DNA from: Teredinibacter turnerae T7901
GTDB lineage: Bacteria > Pseudomonadota > Gammaproteobacteria > Pseudomonadales > Cellvibrionaceae
DNA: 64,000 nt
Direction of reading: 5' to 3'
Assembly: GCF_000023025.1 (NCBI RefSeq)
Contig: NC_012997.1
Location: forward strand, 4,399,125-4,463,124
The translations under genes were made by a program, and so were the position numbers. Positions 2,497 to 13,023 of this stretch are shown here, one piece after another. How positions within the stretch are numbered: the first letter of the stretch is position 1; each line of letters begins with the position of its first letter. Below the pieces are notes generated by a model. It was not told where the DNA came from and made no database searches. It saw only the letters and a program-made list of their open reading frames with translations.

Positions 2497-3294
2497 CTAA
2501 GCAGAAACCAACTCCAGACCGTAGTCGCTCTTAAACATTACAATAATCTCGTCAATCGCTGCTCGGCTGGGTGGTTCCAGGTCTCCCAACGGGTATTCCA
2601 AGCCCATCTCTTCCCACTTGGGTTTGCCTAAGCGGTGGTACGGCAACAACTCGATTTTTTCAACGTTTGTCATGGGTTGAAGAAACTGCGCCAGTGAGCG
2701 GAGATCCTCTAGGTCATCGGTATACCCGGGTACCAGCACGTGCCTGATCCACACTGGATGGCCAATATCCGCAAGGTAGCGGGCAAAATTACGGGTGCGG
2801 TCGTTACTTACCCCGACCAGTGCTTCGTGGCGCTGCCGGTTCATTTGCTTCAAGTCGAGTAACACCAGATCGGTGTAGCCCAGCAGCTCATCCAGATTCG
2901 CCCCCCAAAGCTGGTCCTTCACGTAGCCGTTGGTGTCCAGGCAGGTATTAAAACCCAGCTTTTTCAGCTGTTTGAACAGCAGCGTGAGAAATTCCCACTG
3001 CAGCAACGCCTCCCCCCCGCTTACCGTCACGCCACCATTTGAGGATTGCAAAAAACCGGCAAACGGCAACACCTGCTCGATAACCTCCTGCACGGAATAG
3101 AGACTCCCTGCATGCAAGTCCCAACTATCGCGATTGTGACAGTACAGGCACCGAAACTGACAGCCTTGCAAAAAAACCACAACGCGTAAGCCAGGGCCAT
3201 CCAGCGCGCTGCACTTCTCGAAAGAGTGGACCCGACCGAGCATGTGCTCCTGGTCAATATCGATAAAATTAATCTCGGAAAACGCGGTGGGCAT
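2497..3294 (-). CDS. pflA: Pyruvate formate-lyase activating enzyme (radical SAM)
   Basis: The 265-residue product has the radical-SAM cluster motif C45-x3-C49-x2-C52 in GCQFRCLYCHNRD. It also has the GG-SAM motif (TVSGGEALLQWEF), the family stretch SALDGPGLR near residue 30, and LLDLKQMN. PflA uses a [4Fe-4S] cluster and S-adenosylmethionine to place the glycyl radical on pyruvate formate-lyase, in the cytosol under anoxic conditions. Its length matches the usual 245-265. No pflB lies next to it in the window, which is unusual for this pair, so a different glycyl-radical partner is possible. It is transcribed leftward, convergent with the tiny ORF at 2296. Confidence 0.9.
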   Translation of the reverse strand: MPTAFSEINFIDIDQEHMLGRVHSFEKCSALDGPGLRVVVFLQGCQFRCLYCHNRDSWDLHAGSLYSVQEVIEQVLPFAGFLQSSNGGVTVSGGEALLQWEFLTLLFKQLKKLGFNTCLDTNGYVKDQLWGANLDELLGYTDLVLLDLKQMNRQRHEALVGVSNDRTRNFARYLADIGHPVWIRHVLVPGYTDDLEDLRSLAQFLQPMTNVEKIELLPYHRLGKPKWEEMGLEYPLGDLEPPSRAAIDEIIVMFKSDYGLELVSA

Positions 3295-3565: not shown

Positions 3566-6500
3566 CTATTTAATCTCCAGGTTAATCGTATCAAGACTTC
3601 GACACACGAATTCCTCAAAGGGAAGCGGCTTGCCCGCTAAAAATCCCTGATAGGCATCGACTCCCAGCTCCCGCAGACATGCTAGCTGGGCCGGCGTTTC
3701 AACACCTTCAGCAACAACCTCGAGCTTTAACAAGTGCGCGACCTCTTTCACGCTATTCACAATAGCGCGGTTTACGGGGTTATCTACAATATTTTTAACA
3801 AACGACATATCAATCTTTACGCGGTCGACTGGCAGCTCACCAAGATAAGATAGTGAACTCAACCCCGTTCCAAAATCGTCCAGCGCGAGCTTACACCCGA
3901 GCTCACGAGCTCTACGCATAAATTCACTCGCTTTAACCAGGTTTCTTACTACCGAGGTTTCGGTAATTTCGAAAGAAATTTTATTGGCGGGGTACTGGTA
4001 CCGGGTAAAAAGTTCGCTCACCAGGTCCAGATAAGCCGGATCACTGATAGTCGCACCAGAAACGTTGAAGCTCAATAAGGGAAAATCACGCTCTTTGCCC
4101 TGCCCAAAATATTGAGCAACATTTCGCAAGGCGGACTCCATAACCCAGGTATCGATACGGTTAATCAAACCAAAACGTTCTGCCGCAGGCAAAAAATGGG
4201 ACGGAAGCAAAAACTCGCCTGTAGCATTAAACATGCGTATCAAAATTTCCCAAGACTGAATAGCGCCACTGCCTACGGCATGAATCTGTTGAAAATACAA
4301 ACGAAAGTGATCGCTTTCAATCGCCTGATTAATATCTGAAATACTGCGCATCTGAAGGCGCTGAGCTTCCAGCACTTTATTGTCCTGGGTATGAATCTGA
4401 ATACAGTTGCGGCCAGCTTCTTTCGCCGCATAGCAAGCTGCGTCTGCATCGCTAAGCACCTGAGAAAGCTGTGAGACACTCGGATGAATGCCCACGATGC
4501 CAATGCTGACCCCCACTCGAAAAGCTTTATCTTCCCAAGCAAAGCGATAATCGCATACCTTTTGCTTTATTTTTTGGGCAATCGCTTCAGCTTCCAAAAT
4601 GGGGCAGTGATCCAGCAATATCGCAAACTCATCACCACCTAGACGCGCGAAAGTATCCCGTGTTCTCAGCATATCGCGAATCAGCTGCGCCAACTGTTTC
4701 AGCAACTGATCACCTGCCAGATGACCGCAAGTATCGTTGATCACCTTAAACTGGTCGAGATCCATATATAGCAGCGAGGACTCAATACCCTCACGCCGCG
4801 ACGTGGCTATCGCGCGCTCAAGTCGCTTTTCCATCTCCTCACGATTGACCAAACCGGTTAAGGAGTCATGCGTACTCTGCCACTTTAGTCGCTCTAATTG
4901 ACGATGCCGCTCACTGGTATCTCGCAGCGTTATAATACAGCCGCGCACATCGTCAGATAATTGCAGAGGTACTATCGACAACTCGATATAATTGGCGGTT
5001 TCAGAGCCCGTGTGTATAAGCAGAGGATTGTTTTCAACTACAAACGACTCATTACTTTGCAAACAGCGCTGTACAAACTGCTCCAAAGAGAAACTTCCAC
5101 CGACTTCATCATAAAGAGAAATTTCACTCGCCAACCGCTGAAATGCGATTTCGTCGTGACTTTTACATAGAATTTTTAGCGCCGCAGGATTAATGTATTC
5201 CACCGTGCCGCGTGTGTTTAATCGAATCACACCTTCGGCTACCAGCTCGAGCGTTTTTTGCGCTTGAAACTTTTCGAACGCCAACGCCTCCTTCGAGCGG
5301 GTTAGATTTGTCATATCGTAAAAAATAACGATATACCCATCGAAAACATGGGATGCATTAATATAAGGCGATACCTGGCACTGATATGACCGGTCGTCAA
5401 TCTCCAACTCCGCAATTTGCGATTTTGCCTCACACTCGGCAGCCAGAATCAAAGCCTTAATTTGACCTGCATTCCCCCGCCAATCGACGGCAAAGAACAA
5501 ATCGCCAATCTGGATATGTTGGGTATCAAAAATATGCGAACAGTTTTCCGTAAATCGCAATATTCGGTACTCTTTACTAATCAGTAAAAAAGGAATCTCC
5601 AACGCATTCTGTATATTCTCCAGGTCACTCGAAAGGCGTGTTTGTTCCGCGGTTTTTAATGCATACTCCTCATTGACCGTTATTAACTCTTCGTTTGTCG
5701 ATTGAAGCTCTTCATTAACGGTTTGCAGTTCTTCATTCGTACATTGAAACTCCTCATTGGAAGACTGAAGCTCTTCATTGTAGATCTGGAGTTGCTCATT
5801 GGCGACTTCCAGTTCTTCAATTACCGTTTGAAGATTTTCTCGAGTTGAACTCAATTCCATCTCTATTTGTGCGAAATGGCGATCATCAACACTATCCGAC
5901 TTGCCCTCTCCCGGCGAAAGATAAGTATCTTCCATTACAAGCGATACACAAATCAACCCCTCATCACCTGCCAAAAGCCGCACCACCAAATGACCATATT
6001 TAGCGCCATCTGTCAGCGAAATATTTTTGTGCACACCGTAACACGCTTCCTGTTTCTGTCGTGCGCGAAACACCAGCGCACGGCATTCGGTCTTTAAATC
6101 CGGCAAAATCAGATCAAAGAAATTGGCATCAAACAAACCAGTTTTTTCGCTCAGTAAAACTGAGTATTTTCCATAGGTAAACAAAATGGAATTTCGCTTA
6201 TCCAACACAACCGTCGGCGGTACGAATGCGGTACACACTTTTTGTAGAATTTGATTCTCTATATCACGGGGTTTTTGTTTTTCCTCCAGTTCAATCGCGC
6301 CGGAAAACCGGTTCTTGCGACGCACATTTGGCGGAGACATTTGAACGCCGCCAGTCCGGCGATACACCTTGATACTGGCGCCACCGACCGGTAAAAAATT
6401 TTCATTGCTGGATACCGATTCGGCATTACCCAGGAATAACAGCCCCACATCAGGATTCAAAACGTAGTGAAACAAACGCAGTAGCTGCTCTTGGAGATAA

Positions 6501-7816
6501 GAGTCAAAATAAATAAGTAAATTTCTACAGCAAATCACATCCAGTTTGGAAAATGGCGGATCGGCGAATACGTTGTGTACTGAAAATATAATACGGTCTC
6601 TGACTGCTTTGCGCACTTCATATTCATCAGCGCACTTTTCAAAGTAATTGGTCATCCATGTCGCTGGCGCGTCTCGAAGAACATCCGGCTGAAAAATTCC
6701 CAACCGCGCGCGACTGATTGCCTTCTCGGAAATATCGGTCGCCAGTATTTTGTAATCAAATACCAGGTTGTGCTCGAGCTTCAAATCCTCGAGCAGCATT
6801 GCGACACTGTACGCCTCCTCGCCAAACGCGCATCCGGCCACCCAAATACGAAATTCTGATCTGGGTTCGAGATTTCGCAAACGTGCAACTAATTCGTGTT
6901 TAAAAAAATCAAATTGTGCGGGGTCCCGATAAAACTGACTTACATTTATAAAAGCATCCTGTGTAAATGCCCAAATTTCTCCAACATTTATCCGTAAAAA
7001 AGATAAGTAGTCGTCGAGTGATGCCAGCCCCCTGATTGCCATACGTCGTTCCAAGCGACGTCGTATCGTACTGCGTTTATATTGAGTAAAATCGATTGTA
7101 GTGGCATCAGAAATCAATCGGAGGATTTGATTGTAGGTATCGGCTTCAGATGATTCCCTGGCCGCGCTCAATTCCTTTGGGAGATCACTCTCAACAATTC
7201 GACTAATTTGCTTGCCCAACACTTCAGGACTTCCAATCACGTCAACCATGTGAGTGGAAATAGAAGCCGACGGCATCCCGTCGTAGTCCGACAAGCCAGG
7301 ATCCTGGGCCAGCACGACACCGCCGGCCCCGCGAATCGAGCTGATTCCCGACGATCCGTCATTTCCCGTTCCAGAGAGTACGACGGCAATGGACCTCGAC
7401 CCAAAATTTTCCGCCAAAGAAATAAAGAAGCGATTGATATTGGGCTTAGGTTGCGCCCCCGATTCGGGCGCTCTTAGTAGAAACCGGCCATGAGTAACGA
7501 CAACATCCGTATTCGGCGGCACGACAAAAATACACCCGGCGTGCAGCAGATCCCCATCCTGAATCTGGCGCACGTCCAGGTCAGTATCTCCGGTAATGAT
7601 CTCAGCGAGTTTGCTATCGTGTTGGGGCGCAAGATGCTGGCACAAAATAAAGCAACATCGATACGTAGTCGCACTACGAAATAGCTTTCTACAGGCATCC
7701 AGACCACCGGCAGACGCGCCGATCCCGACGACATAAAACGCCTGCGTGTCTGTTCGAGATGGTACCGCTCGTTCATCCAGGTCAGACATCGAGTTACTGA
7801 GGGAGTTGTCTGTCAT
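3566..7816 (-). CDS. CheB-CheR-PAS-GGDEF-EAL fusion signalling protein
   Basis: A 1416-residue multidomain protein. Residues 28-205 are a CheB methylesterase with the triad visible (S35 in GIGASAGG, H61 in CQHLAPQH, D153 in SGTGNDG). About 225-485 is a CheR methyltransferase (SQFYRDPAQF, IWVAGCAFGEEAYS, CRNLLIYF). About 640-720 is a coiled coil of repeated EELQ(S/T)xNEE units, as in other CheB-CheR sensor fusions. Two PAS-like regions follow near 725-840 and 850-970, then GGDEF (RLGGDEFAILLD, intact active half-site) and EAL. In the EAL domain the first motif is EIL instead of EAL, but DDFGTG and VVAEGVET are kept, so cyclic-di-GMP hydrolysis is uncertain. No TM helix is seen, so it is probably cytosolic. 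The ATG overlaps the BLUF stop codon as TAATG, indicating translational coupling. Confidence 0.95.
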   Translation of the reverse strand: MTDNSLSNSMSDLDERAVPSRTDTQAFYVVGIGASAGGLDACRKLFRSATTYRCCFILCQHLAPQHDSKLAEIITGDTDLDVRQIQDGDLLHAGCIFVVPPNTDVVVTHGRFLLRAPESGAQPKPNINRFFISLAENFGSRSIAVVLSGTGNDGSSGISSIRGAGGVVLAQDPGLSDYDGMPSASISTHMVDVIGSPEVLGKQISRIVESDLPKELSAARESSEADTYNQILRLISDATTIDFTQYKRSTIRRRLERRMAIRGLASLDDYLSFLRINVGEIWAFTQDAFINVSQFYRDPAQFDFFKHELVARLRNLEPRSEFRIWVAGCAFGEEAYSVAMLLEDLKLEHNLVFDYKILATDISEKAISRARLGIFQPDVLRDAPATWMTNYFEKCADEYEVRKAVRDRIIFSVHNVFADPPFSKLDVICCRNLLIYFDSYLQEQLLRLFHYVLNPDVGLLFLGNAESVSSNENFLPVGGASIKVYRRTGGVQMSPPNVRRKNRFSGAIELEEKQKPRDIENQILQKVCTAFVPPTVVLDKRNSILFTYGKYSVLLSEKTGLFDANFFDLILPDLKTECRALVFRARQKQEACYGVHKNISLTDGAKYGHLVVRLLAGDEGLICVSLVMEDTYLSPGEGKSDSVDDRHFAQIEMELSSTRENLQTVIEELEVANEQLQIYNEELQSSNEEFQCTNEELQTVNEELQSTNEELITVNEEYALKTAEQTRLSSDLENIQNALEIPFLLISKEYRILRFTENCSHIFDTQHIQIGDLFFAVDWRGNAGQIKALILAAECEAKSQIAELEIDDRSYQCQVSPYINASHVFDGYIVIFYDMTNLTRSKEALAFEKFQAQKTLELVAEGVIRLNTRGTVEYINPAALKILCKSHDEIAFQRLASEISLYDEVGGSFSLEQFVQRCLQSNESFVVENNPLLIHTGSETANYIELSIVPLQLSDDVRGCIITLRDTSERHRQLERLKWQSTHDSLTGLVNREEMEKRLERAIATSRREGIESSLLYMDLDQFKVINDTCGHLAGDQLLKQLAQLIRDMLRTRDTFARLGGDEFAILLDHCPILEAEAIAQKIKQKVCDYRFAWEDKAFRVGVSIGIVGIHPSVSQLSQVLSDADAACYAAKEAGRNCIQIHTQDNKVLEAQRLQMRSISDINQAIESDHFRLYFQQIHAVGSGAIQSWEILIRMFNATGEFLLPSHFLPAAERFGLINRIDTWVMESALRNVAQYFGQGKERDFPLLSFNVSGATISDPAYLDLVSELFTRYQYPANKISFEITETSVVRNLVKASEFMRRARELGCKLALDDFGTGLSSLSYLGELPVDRVKIDMSFVKNIVDNPVNRAIVNSVKEVAHLLKLEVVAEGVETPAQLACLRELGVDAYQGFLAGKPLPFEEFVCRSLDTINLEIK

Positions 7817-8232
7817 TAGCTGTTCGCTCTGAAGTAGCGCATAAGATCGACAACCTTATCCGCACGACTCACAAGCGCGTCAATAGTGGTAGCATCCTGA
7901 AAGAAACGATTAAACCCCTCCGTTCCCCTCGCATCGTCATCCAAATTCGCAAAGCCCATGCTCCAACCATTGAATGTACGCTGCTCACAACTTTCGTCGA
8001 ATAGCACACGTACACGGTAGTGCCTGCTATCCGCCCGGATTGACTGGAAAACCGTGTGCACGGCGGCCTCATCCCCCTCCATTAGCTGGATAAAGGATTG
8101 ATCCTTATATAACAACATGCCTGAAATGCTTAAAATCTCATTCCTGGCGCGTGATTGGGCTAACAGCGATGTTAAATCACCAATTTGCATGAGTTTAACG
8201 GCAGTGGAGATATAGAGTAGATGGTGCAGCAT
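7816..8232 (-). CDS. BLUF-domain blue-light receptor
   Basis: A stand-alone 138-residue BLUF protein that binds FAD and senses blue light. All photocycle residues known from AppA/BlrB-type proteins are in place: Y7 (LLYIS), N31 (SRARNEI), Q49 (FIQLMEG), W90 and M92 (NGWSMGF). About 40 residues follow the core fold, probably the capping helices used to pass the signal to a partner. The gene is first in a two-gene unit, and its stop overlaps the start of the CheB-CheR-GGDEF-EAL gene by one base, so that protein is the likely output partner. The start has only a weak ribosome site. The family call is secure; the partner is inference from coupling. Confidence 0.93.
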   Translation of the reverse strand: MLHHLLYISTAVKLMQIGDLTSLLAQSRARNEILSISGMLLYKDQSFIQLMEGDEAAVHTVFQSIRADSRHYRVRVLFDESCEQRTFNGWSMGFANLDDDARGTEGFNRFFQDATTIDALVSRADKVVDLMRYFRANS

Positions 8233-8552
8233 TATTCTGGCGTCACATACCTGTGATAGAGGCGGTTATTAATCAGCCTAGAAATGAAATAAGGTAAAAG
8301 CAATAGCGTTTAGCTCACAAACTACGGGCTACACTTCGTAGCAAGCATAATCCGATAAAAAAGCAGAAACCCATGCCAAAATGGTCTTTGCCCGGTTGCA
8401 TTTTCCACTTTAGCAACCCTCCTAGGTTCAAGCGGGCCCTGCGATCCAACCCGCAAAGAATTACAGGATGAAGCTTTCTTACCTTTCCAGAGTCGCATGT
8501 TTAGCTGCATAATGTCAGGTTTTTAAATTGCAGTTCAGGTAGGAGTAACGCC
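8233..8552. other. Divergent intergenic region, BLUF / threonine aldolase
   Basis: This 320-base gap lies between two genes pointing away from each other and should hold both promoters. An AGGAG about 8 bases before 8553 is the ribosome site of the aldolase. I see no clear operator, strong hairpin or small gene. Confidence 0.4.
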
Positions 8553-9575
8553 ATGCAACAGTTCGCAAGTGATAATTACGCCGGTATGTGCCCAGAAGCA
8601 TTGGCATACCTCGAGAAAGCTAATGGTGGCCATGTTCCTGCCTATGGGGAAGACCCTTATACTGAAGAGGTTTGCGAACGATTCCGCGAGATATTCAAGC
8701 ACGATTGCGAGGTGTTTTTTGTATTCAATGGCACCGCGGCAAATTCCCTCGCGCTATCAACCTATTGCAAACCCTACCACAGTGTTATTTGTAGTGAGTT
8801 CGCTCATATAGAAACGGATGAGTGCGGTGCGCCGGAATTTTTTTCTCACGGCTCGAAGATTCTAACCGCTGCCGGTGAGCAAGGCAGACTGGGTTACGAG
8901 GGTATTGCATCGGTAGTACATAAACGGTCCGATGTGCACTACCCCAAACCCAAAGTTGTGAGTGTTACTCAAGCGACTGAACTTGGCACCGTGTACGACG
9001 TAAACCAGTTGCGTAACGTACAACGCGCGGCACAGGATTTTGATTTAAAAATTCACATGGACGGAGCCAGGTTTGCCAATGCCCTCGCGGAACTTAAAGC
9101 GACCCCCGCGGAAATTACACACGAGGTGGGGGTCGACGTACTTTGCCTGGGCGGTACTAAAAATGGGCTGGCGGTTGGCGATGCCGTTATCTTTTTTAAT
9201 CGCGACGATGCGGCCGAGTTCGATTACCGCTGTAAGCAGTCCGGTCAGTTGGCTTCAAAGATGCGGTTTATCTCCGCCCAATGGCTCGGAATTCTCGAGA
9301 ACGATGCCTGGTTAAAATACGGAGAGCACGCGAATAATTGTGCGATACAACTCGAATCCGAGCTGAAAAAAATTGACGAGTTGGAGTTACTATTTCCTCG
9401 GCAGGCAAATTCCGTGTTTGTTAACCTGCCCGAACACGTGCGGAACGGACTGGCAGCGAAAGGCTGGCGGTTTTATACCTTTATTGGTGCTGGCGGCGTG
9501 CGTTTGATGTGTTCCTGGAACACTCAACCAGAGTCGATCACGAACTTTATCCGCGACTTGAAAGGTCTGCTATAA
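8553..9575 (+). CDS. ltaE: Low-specificity L-threonine aldolase-type PLP enzyme
   Basis: The 340-residue protein is of the beta-eliminating lyase/threonine aldolase family, which splits L-threonine or allo-threonine to glycine and acetaldehyde in the cytosol. The expected order is visible: FASDNYAG at the N-terminus, VFNGTAANSLAL (PLP phosphate region), HIETDECGAPEFF, D170 in KIHMDGARFANAL (pyridine-nitrogen Asp) and the Schiff-base lysine K203 in LCLGGTKNGLAVGD. Length fits the family (330-350). The start is supported by AGGAG upstream. It is a monocistronic unit ending at a strong hairpin. Related substrates (beta-hydroxy amino acids) cannot be excluded. Confidence 0.9.
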   Translation: MQQFASDNYAGMCPEALAYLEKANGGHVPAYGEDPYTEEVCERFREIFKHDCEVFFVFNGTAANSLALSTYCKPYHSVICSEFAHIETDECGAPEFFSHGSKILTAAGEQGRLGYEGIASVVHKRSDVHYPKPKVVSVTQATELGTVYDVNQLRNVQRAAQDFDLKIHMDGARFANALAELKATPAEITHEVGVDVLCLGGTKNGLAVGDAVIFFNRDDAAEFDYRCKQSGQLASKMRFISAQWLGILENDAWLKYGEHANNCAIQLESELKKIDELELLFPRQANSVFVNLPEHVRNGLAAKGWRFYTFIGAGGVRLMCSWNTQPESITNFIRDLKGLL

Positions 9576-9594
9576 ACCAGAGTTGACGATAAAC

Positions 9595-9626
9595 CATGCC
9601 AGCCGGTGAATCACCCGGCTGGCATG
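9595..9626. terminator. Strong hairpin between convergent genes
   Basis: A perfect 12-bp stem (CATGCCAGCCGG at 9595-9606, CCGGCTGGCATG at 9615-9626) encloses an 8-base loop. It lies just after the aldolase stop and downstream of the leftward GH16 gene, so it can serve both. T-rich sequence is poor on the plus side. Confidence 0.7.
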
Positions 9627-9729
9627 TATACTGAACAGTATTGAACAGTCGGTTCAACTTTAGCCTGGAACGATCTGTTTACCAAAGCTATCTGACCAGC
9701 TATTGCGTGTTTTGCCTACTGTTGCCCCG

Positions 9730-11412
9730 TTATTGATAGACACGCACATAATCCACTTCGTATGAAGCAGGGAAGGCGGTACCGCTCGGGTCACCACCAT
9801 TATTACCACCGATGGCCAAATTTAAAATCATGTACATTGCTCGAGCGCGAAATGGATTCGAGCCGTCGGGGTTACGTATATTATTTAAATTCGCTTCATT
9901 CAACAGTATTCCATCCACATACAACCTAATAGAATCGTTATCCCAGTCCATTCGCCAGAGATGAAAATCGTTTGCCCACCCAGGGTAAATGGTTTCCAGG
10001 CTCGCTACCGATCGAGTGGATGAGTCCCAAGCCGCCGACCAGGCATCGGAATTGTTTGCTTTCCAGGCCAGGTTCGCTAATAAATTTCCGCGATAATATT
10101 CCATAATGTCAATTTCGCCATTCTCCGGCCACTTTCCATAACCCAACATCCAGAACGCTGGCCACAAGCCACCGCGGGTATCGATGCGCGCGCGCATATC
10201 GAAACGCCCATAGGTCCAATCAGCTTTCCCGGAGGTGGTAATACTGGCGGAAGTATATTGCGCTCCCTGATAATTCTCCCGTCTGGCCGTTATGGTTAAC
10301 ATACCATCGGCTACCCAGGCGTTTTCCGCCCTCGCGCGCGTGTAATATTGTGCTTCGTTATTTCGTACCATCCCCTCCTCGTAACCCCAGGTACTGGACG
10401 AAGGCAAACCGGTATAGTCAAAATCTTCTGCCCATACCAATTGTTTGGGTGCCGTCGGGTACATATCGCTGGGAGCAACAAATCGCCACTGTTGGTTGTG
10501 AGCGCCGGTGGGCGCGAACTGCAAAACATCTGTGCCACGGCTGCTGTCCGCCACCTGTAATACCTTGCCACTCAATCGCGAAACAATTTCAAAATAGCCG
10601 TTTTCTACAGCTCGAAGAGTCCACTGTTGATTGTCTGAGCCATAGTAGCTGTATTGTCGAATTTCGCCTCCGTCATCGAGAGAGCGGTTCCACACATCCA
10701 ATGACTTACCGCTGTTTCCCGCACGGATAGAATAAAAGCCATTGCCCAAGTCGGTGAGATCAAACTGCTGGTTTGTACGAAAGCCGTAGTCCCATTGGTG
10801 AATGACAGCTCCGTTTTCCGTGCTGTTATCGGACACATCCATGGCTAGTTCGCTACTGCGGGAAATAATCACGTACCGGCCGCTGGCGAGATGTGCTTCT
10901 GGTGGTGGCGTCGGTTCGGGCGAGGGACTTGTGCTGGGTATGACCGTTGGCTCGACAGTAGGAGTTGGCGACGGGCTCGGCGTCGATGATGGTGAAGGCG
11001 TTGGTGTCGGTGTAGCTGAAGGTGTCGGTGTCGCAGTAGGTGTTGGCGTGGCCGCCCCATTCAGGGTTACAAGCAAATCGGAAACTTGCGTTACATCACC
11101 GTTGGCAATGAAGCCGAAGCTGGCTTCACCACCCGCAGGAATCTGGTCGTTCCAACCGGCAGAACCGAATTCCCAGAGATTTCCACTGTGAGCGACTTCC
11201 TCAGCGTTCCATAAGTTAACAATCTCAAAATTAGCGGAAAACGATACCCGCCATTGAGAAATCGCATCTGCCCCATCGTTGTGGACAACAATCTCTCCTT
11301 GAAATCCGCCCTGCCAATAGTTAACAACGCTAAAATCCGCGTCCGCCGCGGAAACCCAGCGCCCCAAGAGCACTAAAAACACAGCGACGTACCAACGTAT
11401 CACACGCAACAT
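9730..11412 (-). CDS. Secreted GH16 glucanase with CBM2 and ricin-type lectin domain
   Basis: A 560-residue secreted enzyme. Residues 1-23 are a Sec signal peptide. About 25-120 is a cellulose-binding CBM2 (NYWQGGF, NLWNAEE, AGWNDQI aromatic strips). About 123-172 is a Thr/Pro linker. About 175-315 is a ricin B/CBM13-like lectin with QW repeats (NQQFDL, NQQWTL, NQQWRF). The C-terminal half is a GH16 jelly roll with the catalytic ExDxxE at E433/D435/E438 (GEIDIMEY). GH16 enzymes with this motif usually cut beta-1,3 or mixed-linked glucans; the exact substrate is not shown. An intact GGAGG precedes the ATG. Its linker is Pro/Thr-rich, unlike the poly-Ser linkers of the two cellulases in this window. 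Confidence 0.94.
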   Translation of the reverse strand: MLRVIRWYVAVFLVLLGRWVSAADADFSVVNYWQGGFQGEIVVHNDGADAISQWRVSFSANFEIVNLWNAEEVAHSGNLWEFGSAGWNDQIPAGGEASFGFIANGDVTQVSDLLVTLNGAATPTPTATPTPSATPTPTPSPSSTPSPSPTPTVEPTVIPSTSPSPEPTPPPEAHLASGRYVIISRSSELAMDVSDNSTENGAVIHQWDYGFRTNQQFDLTDLGNGFYSIRAGNSGKSLDVWNRSLDDGGEIRQYSYYGSDNQQWTLRAVENGYFEIVSRLSGKVLQVADSSRGTDVLQFAPTGAHNQQWRFVAPSDMYPTAPKQLVWAEDFDYTGLPSSSTWGYEEGMVRNNEAQYYTRARAENAWVADGMLTITARRENYQGAQYTSASITTSGKADWTYGRFDMRARIDTRGGLWPAFWMLGYGKWPENGEIDIMEYYRGNLLANLAWKANNSDAWSAAWDSSTRSVASLETIYPGWANDFHLWRMDWDNDSIRLYVDGILLNEANLNNIRNPDGSNPFRARAMYMILNLAIGGNNGGDPSGTAFPASYEVDYVRVYQ

Positions 11413-11652
11413 AATTGCCTCCGTTATTCATTATTATTTGCCAGCGCTCGTTGAGCGCTTTCTACACATTATTATGCGGTTAATTATTTACAACCGTGAT
11501 GGGAGTAGCGAACCCGTAGTAGGACAACGAGGTTTTTAGGCAAATACGGTGACAAACGCGCAATTAACAGCTACGGAAGACGCGAGGCCAAACGCAAAAG
11601 GGTCTCCGTTCAGCCCAAACAATTAAGCGACTTAATTTAAGCCGCTACCGGT

Positions 11653-13023
11653 TTAGTGAGGATTTTGCGCAAAATAGATTTTTGCCGCCGCACGTACTTT
11701 AGGCGCAAGCAGCAACGCAGACGTCATCGTCGGAATTGCCATCAGCGCGTACATAATATCGATGATGTTAACCACCAGATTAAGCGATACCACAGAACTG
11801 AGCACCACCAACATCAAATAAAACCAGATGTAGTGCTCTTGGTATTGCGCTCCAATGAGAAAGCCGAGGCATTTACTGCCATAGTACCAAAAGGTAAAAA
11901 CAGTACTCATGCTAAGTAGGGTTACCACCACGACCAGTATCCACTTACCGCCACCAGGGAAGAGCAAATCAAAGGCCTGCGTCGTCAACGCGATCCCGTC
12001 GGCTTCACTCGCCGACCACACGCCACTAACAAGTATGACTAGCGCCGTACAAGTGCATACCAAAAGCGTATCGATAACCGGGCCTAACATCGCAACCAAT
12101 CCTTCGCGCACGGGTTCAGCGGTTTTTGCGGCACCATGTGCCATTGCTTCGGTGCCGATCCCGGCTTCGTTAGAAAACGCGGCGCGCCGCACTCCCATAA
12201 TTATCACACTGCCCAGCGCACCGCCCGCTACAGCATGCCCTGAAAACGCATCACTGAAAATCAGTGCAAATGCCGCTGGAATTTTCTCTAGGTTCGTCAT
12301 CAACACTCCGGCGGTAAGCAGCAGGTAACCAATCACCATCGCAGGAACCAAAACGCCCGTTACGCTCCCCAAGCGACGCAATCGCCCCCAGGCCACCGCG
12401 AGAACGACGCCAGCAAGCAAAAACCCCACGGAGAGGTCAAAACCAAAGTGACTTTCTGCGGAAGCCATTCCCGTCGACTCTCCCACAGTTTGCCGCAGAA
12501 TAGCCACGAGCTGGTTAATCTGGAAACTGGGCATGGTGCCCAGAAGCCCCGCGAAGGCAAAAAAATAGGCGAGCGGCAGCCAGCGCTGACCCAAGCCTTC
12601 GCGCACCACATACATAGGTCCACCCTGCCACTTACCTTCAGAATCTTTGCCGCGGTACATAACCGCGAGTGTACAGGTATAAAATTTGGTGGCGATACCC
12701 AGGCAAGCGCTTACCCACATCCAAAAAATTGCGCCAGGCCCCCCCATGGAGATCGCCAGCGCCACACCCGCTACATTGCCCATACCGAGCGTTCCGGATA
12801 GTGCAGTGCTCAGCGCCTGAAAGTGCGAAAGTTGGCCTCTGTCGTGATCATCAGCGCCCCTTCCTAACAACGCTACACTGCGGGTGAGATAACGGTAGGG
12901 TAAAAAGCGCGAATGGAGGCAGAAAAAGATACCTCCGCCGACGAGCAGAAACACCAGAGGTAAGCCCCAGACAATGCCGACGACGGTGGAAAGAAATTGA
13001 TTAAGCGATTCACTGTTGAGCAT
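11653..13023 (-). CDS. Alanine or glycine:cation symporter (AGCS family)
   Basis: A 456-residue inner-membrane carrier with about ten to eleven hydrophobic segments. The AGCS hallmarks are present: the N-terminal stretch VGGGIFFCLHSRFLPYRY, the signature SALSGTLGMGNVAGVALAI (helix 2), and RRAAFSNEAGIGTEAMAHGAA. The family imports alanine or glycine with Na+ (or H+), fitting the marine setting suggested by other genes. Length fits (440-500). The gene is single, leftward, with about 500 gene-free bases before it. The substrate cannot be told from sequence, because AGCS members also carry glutamine. Confidence 0.92.
   Translation of the reverse strand: MLNSESLNQFLSTVVGIVWGLPLVFLLVGGGIFFCLHSRFLPYRYLTRSVALLGRGADDHDRGQLSHFQALSTALSGTLGMGNVAGVALAISMGGPGAIFWMWVSACLGIATKFYTCTLAVMYRGKDSEGKWQGGPMYVVREGLGQRWLPLAYFFAFAGLLGTMPSFQINQLVAILRQTVGESTGMASAESHFGFDLSVGFLLAGVVLAVAWGRLRRLGSVTGVLVPAMVIGYLLLTAGVLMTNLEKIPAAFALIFSDAFSGHAVAGGALGSVIIMGVRRAAFSNEAGIGTEAMAHGAAKTAEPVREGLVAMLGPVIDTLLVCTCTALVILVSGVWSASEADGIALTTQAFDLLFPGGGKWILVVVVTLLSMSTVFTFWYYGSKCLGFLIGAQYQEHYIWFYLMLVVLSSVVSLNLVVNIIDIMYALMAIPTMTSALLLAPKVRAAAKIYFAQNPH

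Follow-up and report, generated by a model that had tools for sequence, protein, structure and literature searches.

The window, by which we mean the whole stretch of 64,000 nucleotides analysed here, is part of the complete genome (5,193,164 bases) of Teredinibacter turnerae T7901, a symbiont of shipworms. On its reverse strand lie a gene for a stand-alone BLUF photoreceptor of the short type (138 aa, 7816..8232) and, directly downstream of it, a gene for a protein of 1416 aa in which CheB, CheR, PAS, coiled-coil, GGDEF and EAL regions follow one another (3566..7816). The TAA stop codon of the BLUF gene and the ATG start codon of the large gene have one base in common, forming the overlap TAATG (7814..7818, reverse strand), and on re-reading the sequence we found the coordinates, strand and overlap given for the pair in a preliminary description to be exact. 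Scans for promoters and terminators gave signals no higher than the level of shuffled sequence. The genome carries a single BLUF copy and 17 MCP genes. Downstream of the pair and on the same strand is a pyruvate formate-lyase activase gene (2497-3294), which we place outside the unit because, among the pair loci described below, only those of the window and of the congener G136 have it. The window also encodes a GH16 glycosidase (9730-11412) that carries CBM2, an extended linker rich in TP and lectin repeats of the ricin type.

The short protein matches the full length of the BLUF profile in Pfam (PF04940, profile positions 1-92, E = 2.3e-28), and its flavin-pocket residues Y7, N31, Q49, W90 and M92 are invariant or nearly so across the 72 rows of our BLUF alignment, so that the complete BLUF domain reported at first sight is borne out. 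Its top match in the PDB is 1x0p, E = 3.9e-14, a protein of the PixD type (Slr1694/Tll0078). An AlphaFold2 model built from the single sequence was poor (pLDDT 45), and a plasmid search with the BLUF protein returned only matches below 60% identity. The protein ends in YFRANS immediately before the stop codon (7819..7836, reverse strand), and the corresponding terminal motif, [YH]FRxxS-stop, is present in 6/6 BLUF proteins that belong to such pairs as against 0/66 of the other BLUFs compared; a BLUF paralogue in genome G004 comes near to it with the ending HFRSMC. That genome (loci L035 and L040) has four BLUF genes, and the one with this ending, at L040, which lies elsewhere in the genome and is close to the G004 pair BLUF, is likely a recent paralogue outside the pair. 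As a candidate for a contact specific to the partner the [YH]FRxxS ending ranks first, and common descent may partly account for its presence in the pair BLUFs.

The large protein has the order CheB, CheR_N, CheR, PAS-like, coiled coil, PAS_10, PAS_4/9, GGDEF, EAL, and the CheB_methylest, CheR_N, CheR, PAS_10, PAS_4/9, GGDEF and EAL matches each pass the Pfam cut-off. The CheB methylesterase domain (aa 30-204, 7205..7729; PF01339, 5.8e-43) is followed by CheR_N and the CheR methyltransferase domain (aa 228-474, 6395..7135; PF03705 and PF01739), and the coiled coil, made of NEELQ repeats, spans aa 650-728 (5633..5869). Between CheR and the coiled coil, at about aa 515-630 (5927..6274), is a segment that Pfam does not call; an AlphaFold2 model of it, built on 25 homologues, has a mean pLDDT of 76, and a Foldseek search of the PDB with this model returned mostly PAS and LOV folds at modest scores (best E 4.2e-4), which points to a PAS-like domain. 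Downstream of the coiled coil Pfam recognises PAS_10 (aa 732-836, 5309..5623; PF13596, 3.5e-8) and PAS_4/PAS_9 (aa 859-972, 4901..5242; PF08448, 6.7e-8). The 1416-residue protein with CheR, coiled coil, PAS and GGDEF/EAL of the preliminary description is thus sound in outline; where it counted a single PAS domain, there are two Pfam PAS regions and a third, PAS-like one.

The c-di-GMP half of the protein appears complete. The GGDEF domain (aa 982-1137, 4406..4873; PF00990, 2.8e-43) has both the GGDEF signature of the A-site (1060-1064) and an intact RxxD I-site, RTRD (1051-1054). The EAL domain (aa 1161-1397, 3626..4336; PF00563, 8.6e-67) has the full set of catalytic and metal-binding residues (E1190, N1251, E1283, E1286, D1313, D1314, K1334, E1370 and Q1390), and only the middle letter of the EAL motif differs, the motif reading EIL as had been noticed before. 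Cyclase and phosphodiesterase sites are thus both complete in sequence, and from this both activities are predicted. It had also been suggested that, with this change, the net output may be synthesis of c-di-GMP. We considered net synthesis by way of an EAL domain disabled through EIL and reject it. The second position of the motif is variable among the orthologues, being EAL in G006 and G051 and EVL in G004 and G059, the remaining catalytic residues are present, and RbdA, an active phosphodiesterase, carries ELL at the same place, so that EIL gives no ground for net synthesis.

We searched 144 genomes of the family for the large protein and for BLUF separately. The large protein of the window belongs to a clade of six members from five genera (G000, G136, G059, G006, G051 and G004; 39-95% identical), and a BLUF gene is found directly upstream on the same strand in 6/6 of them, at spacings of -1, -1, +3, +64, +41 and +6 nt respectively. 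Except between the two congeners, flanking genes are for the most part unrelated from one pair locus to the next, the one match being between G006 and G051. The adjacency is kept at 39-57% protein identity in five genera where the flanks have changed and other synteny has been lost. Outside the clade, a BLUF neighbour is absent from 10/10 full-length CheB-CheR-PAS-GGDEF-EAL proteins (G380, G399, G560, G763, G848, G1110, two from Nitrosomonas, one from Methylophaga and one from Bryobacterales); an eleventh, in G120 of the same family as the window, lies at a contig edge and was left out of the count. Fisher's test of 6/6 versus 0/10 yields P = 1.2e-4, a value that ignores kinship, the six being one clade. 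Likewise 0/80 CheB-CheR hybrids among the matches listed from the species-genome collection, some of them on short contigs and four of them belonging to the ten above, have a BLUF gene within 5 kb. A profile scan of genome contigs with the CheB-CheR-PAS alignment served as a negative control only, its coiled coil matching all CheB-CheR hybrids. Searches at the level of order, class and phylum, which are samples from which rarer pairs may escape, found more full-length proteins and no further BLUF pair, and no natural fusion of BLUF with its partner was seen. A search of congeners for the empty site was uninformative because the aldolase gene that flanks the pair occurs only in the two species that bear the pair.

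Phylogenetic trees agree with joint inheritance of the two genes. The six large proteins form one clade in the partner tree (support 100/99), and the BLUF and partner trees agree where they are resolved, with the window and G136 together, then G059, next G006 and G051; the G004 BLUF falls with its own paralogue in a neighbouring group of the BLUF tree, with weak support. When the loci are compared two by two, BLUF identity tracks partner identity (r = 0.94), a value driven largely by the close pair. Since the six members form one clade, we regard the pair as a single association of long standing within one family, with one apparent origin, and not as six gains. There are homologues of the large protein elsewhere that lack an adjacent BLUF gene, and BLUF is thus an add-on input that the enzyme can do without. 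In the comparison of the two congeners, dN/dS comes to 0.071 (BLUF) and 0.057 (partner), with all domains below 0.08, showing strong purifying selection on both genes. The preliminary description had proposed that the two genes are functionally coupled, to be checked by looking for BLUF genes beside homologous GGDEF-EAL proteins in relatives; with all clade members paired, in six species and five genera and with mostly unrelated flanks, coupling is strongly supported.

BLUF genes were also encountered in other settings. A short BLUF gene stands directly upstream of a HAMP-MCP gene in six genomes of three families (L049, L055, L059, L063, L174 and L184), overlapping it in L184; these MCP-linked BLUFs form one clade (99/90) and constitute a second, separate link between BLUF and chemotaxis. 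At L163 and L165, from presumed aerobic phototrophs, BLUF and acsF (Mg-protoporphyrin monomethyl ester cyclase, TIGR02029) are oriented divergently, and L159, L161, L164, L172, L178 and L183 have this arrangement too, judged by the start of the sequence; in the tree the pair BLUFs have acsF-linked BLUFs among their closest kin, with weak support. At L180 (1201-2688) a 495-aa protein has its BLUF domain at residue 101 and an EAL domain after it, the order of BlrP1 with an N-terminal extension, and its gene adjoins another short BLUF gene on the opposite strand. Locus L050 of G039 (5972-12301) has three consecutive genes, with BLUF upstream of a GAF-PAS-PAS-GGDEF-EAL gene and then a CheB-CheR-PAS-receiver gene. 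This looks like an unfused counterpart of the link between BLUF, CheB-CheR and GGDEF-EAL; the G039 BLUF falls outside the clade of pair BLUFs. In G135 a CheB-CheR gene and a separate GGDEF-EAL gene lie side by side without BLUF.

The pair is very likely a light-input switch and not an accident of gene order. For its working there is a close precedent in Rhodopseudomonas palustris, where the short BLUF protein PapB and the EAL protein PapA form a heterotetramer in which, in the light, PapB controls the EAL domain through direct contact, the signal passing through C-terminal helices (PMC8846402). By analogy we think it reasonably probable that the BLUF protein of the window senses light and regulates the dual c-di-GMP enzyme by direct contact. 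The short protein would bind FAD and sense blue light, and would then alter the activity of the neighbouring GGDEF-EAL enzyme; contact would probably be made by the C-terminal helices of BLUF, with the FRxxS end, on the PAS/coiled-coil or the GGDEF-EAL part of the partner, and CheB and CheR would probably link the complex to chemoreceptor arrays, either by docking or by receptor methylation. Passage of a light signal to c-di-GMP through a shared complex, which had been proposed at the outset, stands as the best inference and, given PapB-PapA (PMC8846402), is less new than was stated. As to the sign of the output, the top PDB match of aa 843-1401 is RbdA (E = 1e-130), in which phosphodiesterase activity dominates and a changed dimer arrangement lifts autoinhibition (PMC11372557). 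Because the c-di-GMP end resembles RbdA in this way, we infer that light-dependent breakdown, with phosphodiesterase activity up in the light, is the likelier sign, and the BLUF partner could work on a dimer switch of the RbdA type.

A different reading is that BLUF acts with the CheB-CheR half, so that blue light alters chemoreceptor methylation in a light-to-taxis unit with c-di-GMP as a parallel output. The CheB triad S35/H61/D153 aligns with that of Salmonella CheB (1CHD/1A2O), intact as first described, and CheR keeps R297 and D361 in alignment to 5FTW/1AF7. Substrates exist, given the 17 MCP genes in the genome, and BLUFs directly beside MCP genes, in the family of the window and two others of the order, show that BLUF-chemoreceptor links occur. 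However, Pfam finds no receiver domain N-terminal to CheB in the large protein, and the SAM motif of CheR (aa 328-336, 6809-6835) is GCAFGEEAY, with an F that only the window and G136 have; at this position the aligned relatives and the CheR proteins of solved structure carry T or S (GC[AS][TS]GEEAY). CheR activity may thus be altered or lost in T. turnerae and its congener, which weakens the idea of light acting on CheB/CheR methylation. CheB-CheR hybrids without BLUF are moreover common and have many different C-termini, so that this half looks like a generic module for localisation or adaptation. We consider this reading unlikely. Unlikely too is a combination in which one BLUF sensor of blue light, acting through the one partner protein, drives both c-di-GMP turnover and chemoreceptor methylation for the adaptation of taxis; if true, a single complex would let light set the choice of lifestyle (settle or swim) together with the gain of the receptors.

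The two genes might instead be transcribed together without physical coupling, their products being required in the same circumstances and BLUF acting on something else such as a transcription regulator. Short or degenerate BLUFs do have other partners, BluF of E. coli antagonising the MerR-like BluR (PMC3509220) and PixD acting through a PATAN-CheY protein (PMC5812497), but the pair is exclusive and immediate, no regulator gene is common to its loci, and the pair BLUFs have a specific common C-terminus, and we give this explanation little credence. Chance adjacency kept merely by common descent is very improbable: the monophyly of the partner clade would allow a single joining event, but the adjacency has outlasted divergence and the loss of surrounding synteny, with both genes under strong purifying selection.

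If regulation by direct contact is confirmed, the principle of PapB-PapA, a small light sensor set on a c-di-GMP enzyme, reaches a large multi-domain hub that carries chemotaxis-adaptation enzymes. The pair would then be a defined two-gene system for learning what connects CheB/CheR domains with c-di-GMP turnover, with a BLUF C-terminus that is a testable candidate docking motif, and it would bear on what light means to presumably non-photosynthetic bacteria.

Control of EAL proteins by BLUF is known both within a single chain and across two, and the CheB-CheR-PAS-GGDEF-EAL architecture exists elsewhere. A literature search, with most subscription journals outside its scope, did not find a BLUF gene paired with CheB/CheR described, an absence that is weak evidence. 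BlrP1, a precedent for BLUF-to-EAL control (PMC8846402), and BldP have the same input and output in one polypeptide, whereas the system of the window consists of two genes with a dual GGDEF-EAL enzyme and CheB/CheR. RbdA (PA0861, Pseudomonas aeruginosa) is similar in its PAS-GGDEF-EAL half and differs in that it sits in the membrane, has its sensor in the periplasm and lacks CheB/CheR and a BLUF partner. CheB-CheR-PAS hybrids with histidine kinase or GGDEF-EAL C-termini have the same N-terminal architecture and coiled coil, and the full order occurs in Nitrosomonas, Methylophaga and Bryobacterales; the pair proteins form a separate clade from these hybrids, around which, among the matches listed, no BLUF gene lies within 5 kb. 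PixD has the same short BLUF fold, with a PATAN-CheY partner in place of a c-di-GMP enzyme. Closest is PapB-PapA, insofar as a stand-alone BLUF is encoded beside an EAL-domain protein in 6/6 members of the partner clade. PapA, however, is a solo EAL protein, whereas the partner described here has 1416 aa with CheB, CheR, PAS and an intact GGDEF domain. By its proposed mode of action the pair thus belongs with the two-protein BLUF-EAL systems and is not a member of the PapA family.
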